Below, one piece after another: positions 24,696 through 28,450 of a stretch of DNA of 64,000 bases. Made by a program: the position numbers and the translations under genes. Every line of letters begins with the position of its first letter. Position 1 is the first letter of the stretch. The stretch lies in contig NZ_RCDA01000001.1 in NCBI RefSeq assembly GCF_003664325.1, forward strand, positions 1,178,001-1,242,000, read 5' to 3'. The notes beneath the pieces are model-generated. The model did no database searches, was not told the origin of the DNA, and saw nothing but the letters and a program-made list of their open reading frames with translations. The DNA is from Alkalispirillum mobile (lineage in GTDB: Bacteria; Pseudomonadota; Gammaproteobacteria; Nitrococcales; Halorhodospiraceae).

Positions 24696-26249
24696 TTATA
24701 CGTCCGCCGCCTGCGGGTGGCGCCGCAACTCACCCTGGTCGATCTTGTTCAGGGCGTTCAGGTAGGCCTTGGCCGAGGCGATCACGATATCGGTGTCCGA
24801 GCCCTGGCCGTTGACGATTCGCCCGCCGCGCTCCAGGCGCACGGTCACCTCGCCCTGGGAGTCGGTGCCGGTGGTAATGTTGCTCACCGAGTAGAGCAGC
24901 AGCTCGGTGTCGGAGGCGCCGATCAACTCCTCTATGGCCTTGAAGGCCGCATCCACCGGGCCGCTCCCCGGACACACGGCGCGCCGCTCCCGGCCGTCCA
25001 CCATCAGGGTGACGGTGGCCTCGGGCGTTTCACCGGTCTCGGAGCAGACATGCAGGGCCACCAGGCGGTAGCGCTCGTTCTCCAACGCCATGTTGGCTTC
25101 GGTGACCAATGCCTGCAGGTCCTCGTCGAATATCTCGTGCTTCTTGTCCGCCAGACCCTTGAAGCGCTGGAAGGCCTCGTTGAGCTGCTCCTCAGAGTCG
25201 AACTCGATGCCCAGATCCTTGAGCCGGGCCCGAAAGGCGTTGCGCCCGGAGTGCTTGCCCAGCACCATCCGGTTGGTGTGCCAGCCCACGTCCTCGGCGC
25301 GCATGATCTCGTAGGTCTCGCGGTGCTTGAGCACCCCGTCCTGGTGGATACCCGACTCGTGGGCAAAGGCGTTGGCCCCGACGATGGCCTTGTTGGGCTG
25401 GGGCTGAAAGCCGGTGATATTGGCCACCAGGCGGCTGGCGGGCACGATCTCCCTCGCCTCGATGCGCGTGTCGCAGGGGAAGTAGTCCTGCCGGGTACGC
25501 ACCGCCATGACCAGCTCCTCCAGCGCGGCGTTGCCGGCACGCTCGCCGAGCCCGTTGATGGTGCACTCCACCTGCCGCGCGCCGTTCATCACCGCTGCCA
25601 GGGAGTTGGCCACCGCCACCCCCAGGTCGTTGTGGCAGTGCACCGAGAAAACCGCCTTGTCGGAGTTGGGGACGTTCTCGCGCAACCGCTTGATCAGCGC
25701 GCCGAACTGCTCCGGCAGGTTGTACCCCACCGTGTCCGGGATGTTCACCGTGCCGGCGCCGGCATCGATCACCGCCTCGATGATCCGGCAGAGGAACTCG
25801 GGGTCGGAACGGCCCGCGTCCTCCGGCGAGAATTCCACGTCATCGCAGAGCGAGCGGGCCAGCTTCACCGCCTTCACCGCCTCCGCCACCACCTCGTCGG
25901 GCGTCATCCGGAGCTTCTTTTCCATGTGGATGGGCGAGGTGGCGATGAAGGTGTGGATACGGCCGGCCTCGGCCTCCTGCAGCGCCTCGCCGGCGCGCCG
26001 GATATCGTCCTCCCGGGCACGGGCCAGTCCGCAGATCCGGCTGTCCTTCACGGCGCGGGCCACCGCGCTCACCGATTCGAAATCACCGACGCTGGCCGCC
26101 GGGAACCCCGCCTCGATCACGTCCACCTTCAGCCGCTCCAGCGCCCGGGCGATGCGCACCTTTTCCTCGCGGGTCATGGAGGCGCCGGGACTCTGCTCAC
26201 CGTCGCGCAGGGTCGTATCGAAGATAATGAGATGTTCTTTGTCGCTCAT
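24696..26249 (-). CDS. leuA: 2-isopropylmalate synthase LeuA
   Basis: LeuA condenses alpha-ketoisovalerate with acetyl-CoA, the committed step of leucine synthesis. The N-terminal TIM barrel opens with [16 protein letters not shown] and contains [26 protein letters not shown] (metal-binding HxH) and [13 protein letters not shown]. The C-terminal third is the LeuA regulatory (leucine feedback) domain. At 517 residues it matches the E. coli-type enzyme (523). The start ATG 26249 gives the canonical N-terminus; the in-frame extension to 26432 runs through the leader region. A leucine-rich leader peptide and a terminator-like hairpin lie upstream. Confidence 0.97.
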
Positions 26250-26289
26250 GATGACTCTCCCGGGAGGCCGGCCGTGCGTGCCGCCTACC

Positions 26290-26323
26290 TTAAACGAATA
26301 CCATCCCGCTGCCGAGGCGCGGG
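26290..26323 (-). terminator. Terminator-like hairpin between leucine leader and leuA (candidate attenuator)
   Basis: On the minus strand CCCGCGC-CUCG-GC-A-GCGGG folds into a 7-bp GC stem with one bulged A and a tetraloop (26323 to 26305). A tail follows in which 6 of the first 13 bases are U (AUGGUAUUCGUUU). The 3' arm repeats the hexamer GGCAGC that also follows the leader peptide, so alternative pairing is possible. The weak U tract keeps confidence moderate. Confidence 0.4.
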
Positions 26324-26367
26324 CCTGGGGGAATTCAGGGCTGTGGGATCGGGTCGGATAGGCTGCC

Positions 26368-26457
26368 TTACGGCAGCAGCAGTCGCAGACTGGTGAAGGT
26401 GAGCAGCGGGCGACCGGACAGGGACGACGCACGACGCCGGGAGGCGCCGGTAGGCAT
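26368..26457 (-). CDS. leuL: Candidate leucine-rich leader peptide upstream of leuA
   Basis: A 29-codon reading frame begins at ATG 26457 and ends with codons for LRLLLP and TAA at 26368. Six or more residues are leucine: one at 13, a pair at 18-19, one at 24 and three in a row at 26-28, mostly CTG. A perfect hairpin GCTGCC-GTAA-GGCAGC (26362-26377) spans the last codons and the stop. Position, size and the Leu run just before the stop are what an amino-acid attenuation leader looks like. Against it, the Shine-Dalgarno sequence is weak (AAGGG lies too far upstream), and I cannot run a conservation test. The name is by analogy to enterobacterial leuL. Confidence 0.5.
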
Positions 26458-26542
26458 TGCGTCGCTGGATAACCCTTGGAAGATCATTCGGTGTAGAGCA
26501 CTCTGCCCGTGATGATTAAAACGCGTGTCGGTATAACCGGAT

Positions 26543-26579
26543 GAACTTGACTATAAACGCCTCTCCAGTGAGCTGGCAA
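26543..26579 (-). promoter_or_regulatory. Promoter of the leader-leuA transcript (candidate)
   Basis: Reading the minus strand, TTGCCA (26579-26574) and TATAGT (26555-26550) each match the sigma-70 consensus at five of six positions with an 18-base spacer. The predicted start near 26543 leaves an 86-base leader before the candidate peptide. The remaining DNA up to 26710, toward the divergent M48 gene, shows no further gene. Confidence 0.6.
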
Positions 26580-26710
26580 CCCCGGTGGCCGGGCCGTTGA
26601 TGACTTTTTCCAATCGCCCCCATTGACCGCGCCCCGCGTCGTTTGCCCGCCGCCACGGGTAGCGCGTATTGCGCTTGCGCGGAGCGGCGCCAATCGGAGA
26701 TAAGGGGACG

Positions 26711-27670
26711 ATGGACCCGACACACCTTGCACAGCGCAAGCTGCAAAACCTGCTGGGCGCCGTCCTGCTGCTCACCGGCCTGACCCTGTTGCTGGGGCTG
26801 ATGGGCTGGTTACTGGCCGGCGGCGTCGGCCTGGTCTGGGCCATGGCACTGGCCGTGGTGACCAGCCTGGTGGCGCGCAGCCTGCCGGCGCGCCTGCTAC
26901 TCGCCCGCTCCGGCGCCTCCCCGCTGCCGCCCGGAGCGGCCCCGGACCTTTACCGGCTGCTGGCGGCGCTCTACCGACGGGCCGGCCTGCGCCATGACCC
27001 GACACTCTACTACCTGCCCTCACCGGCCCTGAACGCCTTTGCGGTGGGCCACCGGGATGACGGCGGCATCGCGGTGAGCGGTGGCCTGCTGCGCACGCTC
27101 ACACTGCGGGAGCTGGCCGGGGTACTGGCCCACGAGGTGAGCCACCTGCGCCACAACGACACCACTGTAATGGCCATGGCCGATGCCATGGCGCGCCTGA
27201 CCTTCTGGGCCGCGGTGCTGGGCCAGCTGACGCTGCTCATACTGCTGCCCTGGTGGATGGCGGGGGATCTGGCGCTGCCCTGGTTGCTGTTCCTGGCCAT
27301 CCTGATCGCGCCCAGCGCCGCCACGCTGCTCCAGCTGGCGCTGTCACGCAACCGCGAGTACGCCGCGGACATCGAGGCCGCCAGCCTGACCGGTGACCCC
27401 CAGGGCCTGGTCTCGGCCCTGGTGAAGCTGGAACGCTACAACGGCGGCTGGCTGCGCAGCCTGTTCGGCCGCCGCCCCCGGCTGGCCCCACCCTGGTTAC
27501 GCACCCACCCGCCCACGGAGGTGCGTATCGAACGGCTGCACAGGCTGGAAAAGCAGGCAACGCCCGATACGGCATTACACGGGCTACCGAGCGAGCCGGT
27601 GGCCCTCAGGATGAAGGCCCCGCCGCGCGCCCGGCGACGGTACTGGCTGGTCCGGCGGCGCTGGCCCTGA
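26711..27670 (+). CDS. M48-family (HtpX-like) membrane zinc metalloprotease
   Basis: The 319-residue protein has two N-terminal membrane spans (about 17-55), then a peptidase domain with the zinc motif HEVSH in VLAHEVSHLRHND (near 148-160). Two more spans follow (about 170-215), and the third zinc ligand lies in SRNREYAADIEAA. This is the HtpX layout, but the sequence diverges from E. coli HtpX, so a general M48B name is safer. HtpX-type proteases act in membrane-protein quality control. ATG 26711 is preceded by AAGGGG. It is convergent with pssA. Confidence 0.88.
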   Translation: MDPTHLAQRKLQNLLGAVLLLTGLTLLLGLMGWLLAGGVGLVWAMALAVVTSLVARSLPARLLLARSGASPLPPGAAPDLYRLLAALYRRAGLRHDPTLYYLPSPALNAFAVGHRDDGGIAVSGGLLRTLTLRELAGVLAHEVSHLRHNDTTVMAMADAMARLTFWAAVLGQLTLLILLPWWMAGDLALPWLLFLAILIAPSAATLLQLALSRNREYAADIEAASLTGDPQGLVSALVKLERYNGGWLRSLFGRRPRLAPPWLRTHPPTEVRIERLHRLEKQATPDTALHGLPSEPVALRMKAPPRARRRYWLVRRRWP

Positions 27671-27694: not shown

Positions 27695-28450
27695 TCAGCC
27701 GGCGCGACCACCACGCAACCGTCGACGCCGCTGGTTCCACGTCATCACCGGCCCGGAGACCAGGTAGGCGAGAAAGCCGACAAACAGCACCGTGGGCGGG
27801 TGGATGAGCAGAAAGGCCAGCCCGAGCAGCACCACCACCATGGTGAAAAAGGGCACCCGGTAGCGGAAGTCCACCTCCTTGAAGCTGTAGTAGCGCATCC
27901 GGCTGACCATCAGCAGCCCGGCGGCCAGCACAACCACGCTGGCAGTGATCAGTGCGCTGCTCTCGCTGACCCCCAGGTGATCCCCCACCCAGATCAGGCC
28001 CGCGACCACCCCCGCAGCGGCGGGACTGGGCAGCCCCTGGAAGTAGCGCTTGTCCGCCACGCCCACCTGGGTGTTGAACCGGGCCAGGCGCAGCGCCGCA
28101 CAGGCCGCGTAGATGAAGGCGATCAGCAGGCCCAGCTTGGCGAAAGGCCCGGGCAGCACCGCGGTGCCCGACAGCGCCCAGAGCCAAGCCACCAGTGCCG
28201 GCCCCACCCCGAAGCTGACCATATCGGCAATGCTGTCGTACTGGACGCCGAAGTCACTCTGGGTGTTGGTCATACGGGCGACGCGGCCATCGAGACCATC
28301 GAAGACCATGGCGATGAAGATCGCCAGGGCGGCGTTCCGGAAATCGCCGTTGAAGGCGGAGATGATGGCAAAGAAGCCGAAGAACAGGCAGCCGGTGGTC
28401 AGCAGGTTGGGCAGAAGGTAGATACCGCGGCGGCGCTTGGTCGCATCCAT
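27695..28450 (-). CDS. pssA: CDP-diacylglycerol-serine O-phosphatidyltransferase PssA (membrane type II)
   Basis: This integral enzyme makes phosphatidylserine, the precursor of phosphatidylethanolamine. The CDP-alcohol phosphotransferase motif D-G-x2-A-R-x8-G-x3-D-x3-D is complete in FDGLDGRVARMTNTQ through QYDSIAD (about 50-77). About eight membrane spans follow, and a basic RRRRLRGGR tail ends the protein. The N-terminus RRGIYLLPNLLTTGCLF is typical of this subfamily, unlike the peripheral E. coli PssA. It is divergent from the small gene at 28586; ilvC lies further upstream but is not adjacent. Confidence 0.94.
   Translation of the reverse strand: MDATKRRRGIYLLPNLLTTGCLFFGFFAIISAFNGDFRNAALAIFIAMVFDGLDGRVARMTNTQSDFGVQYDSIADMVSFGVGPALVAWLWALSGTAVLPGPFAKLGLLIAFIYAACAALRLARFNTQVGVADKRYFQGLPSPAAAGVVAGLIWVGDHLGVSESSALITASVVVLAAGLLMVSRMRYYSFKEVDFRYRVPFFTMVVVLLGLAFLLIHPPTVLFVGFLAYLVSGPVMTWNQRRRRLRGGRAG

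Follow-up and report, generated by a model that had tools for sequence, protein, structure and literature searches.

The leuA gene of Alkalispirillum mobile is preceded by a short frame that ends in a cluster of Leu codons, and the stop codon of this frame lies in the loop of a perfect hairpin. Judged by its sequence, the site belongs to a widespread family of leucine leader peptides that is absent from Rfam. The leader probably switches leuA on when leucine is scarce, without the usual built-in terminator. To the fuller reading, in which a leader-peptide attenuator of a type found in non-enteric Gammaproteobacteria responds to leucine and has a Rho-dependent read-out, we give an even chance; the leucine response, its direction and Rho as the terminating agent are presumed in it. 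The original prediction was of an attenuator at this place. A leucine leader peptide does stand before leuA, organised unlike leuL, and the terminator/antiterminator part of that prediction found no support.

The window, i.e., the whole stretch of 64,000 nucleotides that was analysed (contig NZ_RCDA01000001.1), contains the following elements around the leader.

24696..26249, minus strand: leuA, 2-isopropylmalate synthase (Pfam PF00682, PF08502 and PF22617; HMGL-like and LeuA_dimer)
26255..26261, minus strand: Shine-Dalgarno-like GGGAGAG of leuA, read from the sequence
26305..26323, minus strand: second GC hairpin with a bulged A, CCCGCGC-CTCG-GC-A-GCGGG, not supported as a terminator
26314..26358, minus strand: C-rich, G-poor stretch directly after the stop hairpin, candidate Rho loading region (chosen by composition; the role of Rho is presumed)
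26362..26377, minus strand: stop-codon hairpin P1, GCTGCC-GTAA-GGCAGC, with TAA in the loop (class consensus CTGCC-NTAR-GGCAG; the sole genome match of the covariance model R1)
26368..26457, minus strand: leader peptide frame of 29 codons plus TAA, recognised by sequence and class-wide occurrence
26374..26388, minus strand: Leu codon cluster CTG CGA CTG CTG CTG, codons 24-28; a Leu cluster abutting the stop is the class hallmark
26550..26579, minus strand: promoter TTGCCA-18-TATAGT, the sole promoter-like site in 26200-26750

The start codon of leuA is the ATG at 26249 on the minus strand. The predicted promoter is present, with the boxes TTGCCA at 26579-26574 and TATAGT at 26555-26550 and a spacer of 18, and it is the one promoter-like site found in 26200-26750, where 0.2 were expected. 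The promoter upstream of the leader frame is conserved in the family as TTGCCN or a near variant, a spacer of 17-18 and TATAGT or TATATT, and a transcription start upstream of the frame is therefore supported. The leader frame runs from ATG 26457 to TAA 26370-26368 and is open too from an in-frame ATG at 26487 (39 aa); no recognisable Shine-Dalgarno sequence was found at either ATG. Its seven Leu codons are at positions 13, 18, 19, 24, 26, 27 and 28, exactly as predicted, and the three consecutive ones (26-28) are followed by a final Pro and the stop. A signal from rare Leu codons was rejected for the window, because the Leu codons used, CTG and CTC, are common in the A. mobile genome. The predicted hairpin over the end of the frame is there as well: P1 consists of the arms GCTGCC (26377-26372) and GGCAGC (26367-26362) around the loop GTAA, and forms a perfect 6-bp stem with a local stability of -11.8 kcal/mol. 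The combination is beyond chance. When the window upstream region was shuffled with its dinucleotides preserved, at least four Leu in the last seven codons together with a stop hairpin this strong were obtained in 0 of 3000 shuffles, and a looser threshold was reached in 3 of 3000. Folding of the leader RNA, proposed as a check of the prediction, gave no excess stability of the leader as a whole over shuffled sequences (z -0.54). On the other side of the leader, a divergent M48-family peptidase gene (PF01435; 26711-27670, plus strand) lies between leuA and a CDP-alcohol phosphatidyltransferase gene (27695-28450); a pssA-like frame stands directly upstream of the leuA leader in many relatives.

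To place the window leader among its relatives, leuA upstream regions were gathered from the family, order and class of the window, which gave 207 distinct gammaproteobacterial regions. At the looser threshold, 72 of the 207 have a Leu-rich frame together with a hairpin at its stop; the reverse complement gave 2, and five sets of shuffles gave 1-3. The leaders of many relatives finish in LLRLLP, RLLLP, LLLLLP or similar before the stop, with P1 around it. To avoid selecting on the hairpin, 117 leaders were picked by Leu content and position only. Among the leaders ending in TAA or TAG, P1 occurred as CTGCC-NTAR-GGCAG in 27 of 82 (0-3 in slid registers), whereas 19 of 34 TGA leaders carry it shifted by one register, as TGCCC-TGAN-GGGCA (slid registers, 0-3). 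The window P1 is identical to the former consensus, the commonest form in the class. In other leaders the arms differ yet still pair (TGCGCC/GGCGCA, TGCGCT/AGCGCA and GCCGC/GCGGC), and in L073, L050, L139 and L198 the hairpin was retained while the stop was shifted just beyond it. Because the arms vary with their pairing preserved and the hairpin persists when the stop has moved, the hairpin itself, beyond the stop alone, is conserved. A TnaC-like Pro-stop signature was considered and rejected, since P1 persists where the last residue is not Pro; Pro ahead of the stop is common and not required (L073, L050 and L139 end otherwise). The 17 AT-rich leaders of the class use CTN for Leu (mostly CTG, CTC and CTA), whereas their own leuA genes favour TTA and TTG.

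About 46 of the 117 selected leaders carry a second element, NCCUGGCGAGGN...ACGC, 11-29 nt past the stop, and it fits a small H-type pseudoknot with the pattern NCC[U/C]-GGCG-[A/G]GGN and then ACGC after a short link that is often rich in A. Covariation is strong at the fourth stem pair, which is paired in 86 percent as against 43 percent when the partners were shuffled (the permutation tests across leaders take no account of kinship among the sequences), and CG, GC, UA, AU and GU were all seen at this pair. The loop triplet pairs as GCG with CGC in most leaders, as ACG with CGU in L074, L198 and L227, and as GCG with CGU in four. The element, CCUGGCGAGG...ACGC, sits between the leader stop and leuA, for example in L027, L056, L074 and L198. 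This pseudoknot type is absent from Rfam, and the window leader has no pseudoknot of the kind seen in these relatives.

A covariance model, R1, was built from 33 pseudoknot-bearing relatives with the window excluded, and whole genomes were searched with it. The 2.95 Mb genome of the window yielded a single match at E ≤0.01, located at 26339-26384, with an E of 0.003; this is a modest score, and it was counted against the leader-attenuator reading. The class sample gave about 57 strong matches (E < 1e-7), and 29 of the best 30 of these lie directly before leuA. Outside the class, in the phylum sample, none better than about 1e-4 appeared among the matches listed. Weaker matches away from leuA (L259-L264) look like chance. 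In genome G126 the P1-pseudoknot leader occurs a second time, in a strong copy (L257, about 1501-1556) that has no leuA directly downstream. A search of Rfam with the window and 20 relatives returned nothing relevant, and the class is absent from Rfam 15. No published description of the class was found in a partial literature search, so its novelty is stated tentatively; terminator-less leaders would escape a survey of premature terminators such as that of PMC2965389.

Nearer to the window, conservation takes a different form. The genus is represented by one genome, and the window frame is known from that genome alone. The original prediction looked to relatives for conservation of the small frame, and the answer was divided: the Leu cluster is missing from the closest relatives in the family, which carry a different leader instead, some having exchanged or lost the leader, whereas distant Gammaproteobacteria keep the Leu-rich frame with its cluster. 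What is conserved at the family level is therefore the promoter, the position and the stop hairpin; the Leu cluster is not included. In the sister genus (probably Halorhodospira-like), the leader starts about 9-11 nt past the -10 box and is thus nearly leaderless. Its leaders (L005-L010 and L012; frames lying some 110-230 nt before leuA) encode an invariant 13-residue core, WLRCSGAGGVRLL. Seven sequences of this core showed 89 synonymous pairwise codon differences and 0 replacement differences, with flanks that diverge freely; judged from its codons, the core is under purifying selection. It occurs in 7 genomes, all of the sister genus, and in 0 of 369 sampled genomes of the class. A hairpin of 6-8 bp at the stop closes most sister-genus leaders as well, and L008 shows a compensatory change in it, although such a hairpin is only mildly improbable in sequence this GC-rich. 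The W...GVR pattern of the core may be loosely likened to SecM. In another genus of the order, the leuA leaders L145-L147 have a conserved LLLTHCSGA core, and that of L145 ends in RRLP before the stop, with a stop-proximal imperfect repeat, CTGCCGTAAGGTAAGGCAG.

How such a leader would act on leuA can be read in several ways. Classical attenuation of the leuL type, with P1 as the 1:2 hairpin, the hairpin at 26323-26305 as an intrinsic terminator and the GGCAGC copies as alternative partners, is highly improbable. P1 does look like a 1:2 protector hairpin whose loop holds the stop, and the recurrence of GGCAGC noticed in the original prediction is real, with a copy at 26313-26308, but the mutually exclusive pairing built on it is not conserved: no conserved second partner of the P1 3' arm was found, as this arm pairs downstream with a lower probability than shuffled sequence does (0.54 vs 0.62), and an alternative 2:3 pairing was rejected for the same reason. 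The second GC hairpin with its bulge also exists at 26323-26305, but it is no stabler than shuffled sequence (z -0.8), and it has no counterpart. The U-leaning tail ascribed to it turned out to be ATGGTATTCGTTT, which is not a U-tract. The terminator scan, which E. coli leuL passes, found no terminator-like site on the minus strand of the window leader, and in the class 1 of 117 relatives had an intrinsic terminator at 6 of 8 T. On all these grounds an intrinsic terminator was rejected for the window. Furthermore, the Rfam Leu_leader covariance model did not match the window, either at its gathering score or with E relaxed to 5; from this and the lack of a terminator, the window leader does not belong to the Leu_leader family of enterobacteria. 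The two share a short Leu-rich peptide before leuA and presumed ribosome stalling at Leu codons. In E. coli leuL, however, a CTA run lies in the middle of the frame, well away from the stop, and the frame is followed by a strong terminator, AACCCGCGCCATTGCGCGGGTTTTTTT, whereas in the window the Leu cluster lies up against a stop held within P1, with no terminator behind it. Leu-rich leaders before leuA have been described in Shewanella, with a terminator and an antiterminator stem (PMC2659441), and in C. jejuni, with the Leu codons at the C-terminal end as in the window (PMC3847290); the parts of these two accounts that we consulted report no class of stop-spanning hairpins and no pseudoknot.

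The same sensor could instead have a translational read-out, in which the unoccupied run of Leu codons pairs with the Shine-Dalgarno region of leuA and hides it. Such a read-out has been put forward for the LEU element of Actinobacteria (PMC1262725), which stands before leuA with a Leu leader peptide, a pseudoknot, pairing of the Leu run with the Shine-Dalgarno sequence and no clear terminator, and which is, compared by description only, the nearest published analogue of the class. The likeness extends to some pairing of this sort in the class and to the pseudoknot of the pseudoknot-bearing relatives, whereas the window has neither the pairing nor their pseudoknot type. Over 92 leaders, the Leu run paired with its own Shine-Dalgarno sequence at -14.4 kcal/mol and with shuffled ones at -12.4, and the own sequence outdid GC-matched foreign ones by 1.0 ± 0.35 kcal/mol; L028 (CTACTCC/GGAGTAG) and L082 (11 bp) are striking single cases. 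The class effect is nonetheless modest, with statistics that ignore kinship, and in the window the Leu run pairs with GGGAGAG more weakly than with shuffled sequence (-12.0 vs -14.2 kcal/mol). Counted in favour of a translational read-out was that the Shine-Dalgarno sequence of the window leuA is paired with 26484-26478 at a probability of about 0.77 in the full fold. We consider a read-out through its hiding by the Leu run unlikely. It is less probable still that the leader is a degenerate relic, which the genome inherited and which has ceased to regulate leuA. Such a relic would agree with a frame that lacks a ribosome-binding site, with a window that has neither a pseudoknot nor pairing of the Leu run with the Shine-Dalgarno sequence, and with same-family relatives that swapped or lost their leader, but the perfect stop hairpin beside seven intact Leu codons, unmatched in the 3000 shuffles, speaks against decay, and the conserved promoter argues for maintenance.

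Rho-dependent attenuation is favoured for the window because it has no intrinsic terminator, a C-rich stretch follows the leader and the genome of A. mobile encodes rho. C exceeds G by 16 over the 45 nt that begin 12 nt past the window stop, which is among the highest values in the class. The skew of C over G past the stop has a class mean of 0.15 and is positive in 84 percent, as compared with 0.02 in leuA upstream regions without such a leader. C-richness predicts Rho action poorly. Also counted against the attenuator reading were the lack of a visible ribosome-binding site, the loss of the Leu cluster in the closest relatives and the use of common Leu codons. In the proposed mechanism, the transcript would start near 26543 and encode a short peptide with Leu codons directly before the stop, which sits in the loop of P1. 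With charged tRNA-Leu plentiful, the ribosome would reach the stop and depart, P1 would close, and the C-rich RNA behind it would be exposed to Rho, so that transcription would end before leuA. Under leucine shortage, the ribosome would stall on the terminal Leu codons, hold P1 open and cover the front of the C-rich stretch, and the polymerase would reach leuA. This scheme is akin to tnaC-type leaders with a Rho read-out in its short frame, its C-rich RNA, its lack of an intrinsic terminator and a ribosome that, halted close to the stop, would protect the Rho site. In tnaC-type leaders the nascent peptide senses free tryptophan; the signal in the window would differ from this, being presumably a lack of charged tRNA-Leu.

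Attenuation of the leucine operon is textbook biology from enteric bacteria. The present data suggest that much of the remaining Gammaproteobacteria controls leuA by a different leader, in which Leu codons abut a hairpin-borne stop, often with a pseudoknot and without an intrinsic terminator. A further reading, which we hold to be somewhat less likely than not, is that of an undescribed class of gammaproteobacterial leuA leaders, composed of a terminal Leu cluster and P1, joined in about 40 percent by a small H-type pseudoknot that covaries, which would control leuA without terminator/antiterminator switching. The window would be a pared-down member of it, and in the sister genus the sensor would have become the conserved nascent peptide WLRCSGAGGVRLL, whose sequence may make the ribosome stall. 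Regulation by a leader peptide without a terminator thus becomes a directly testable question in culturable organisms.
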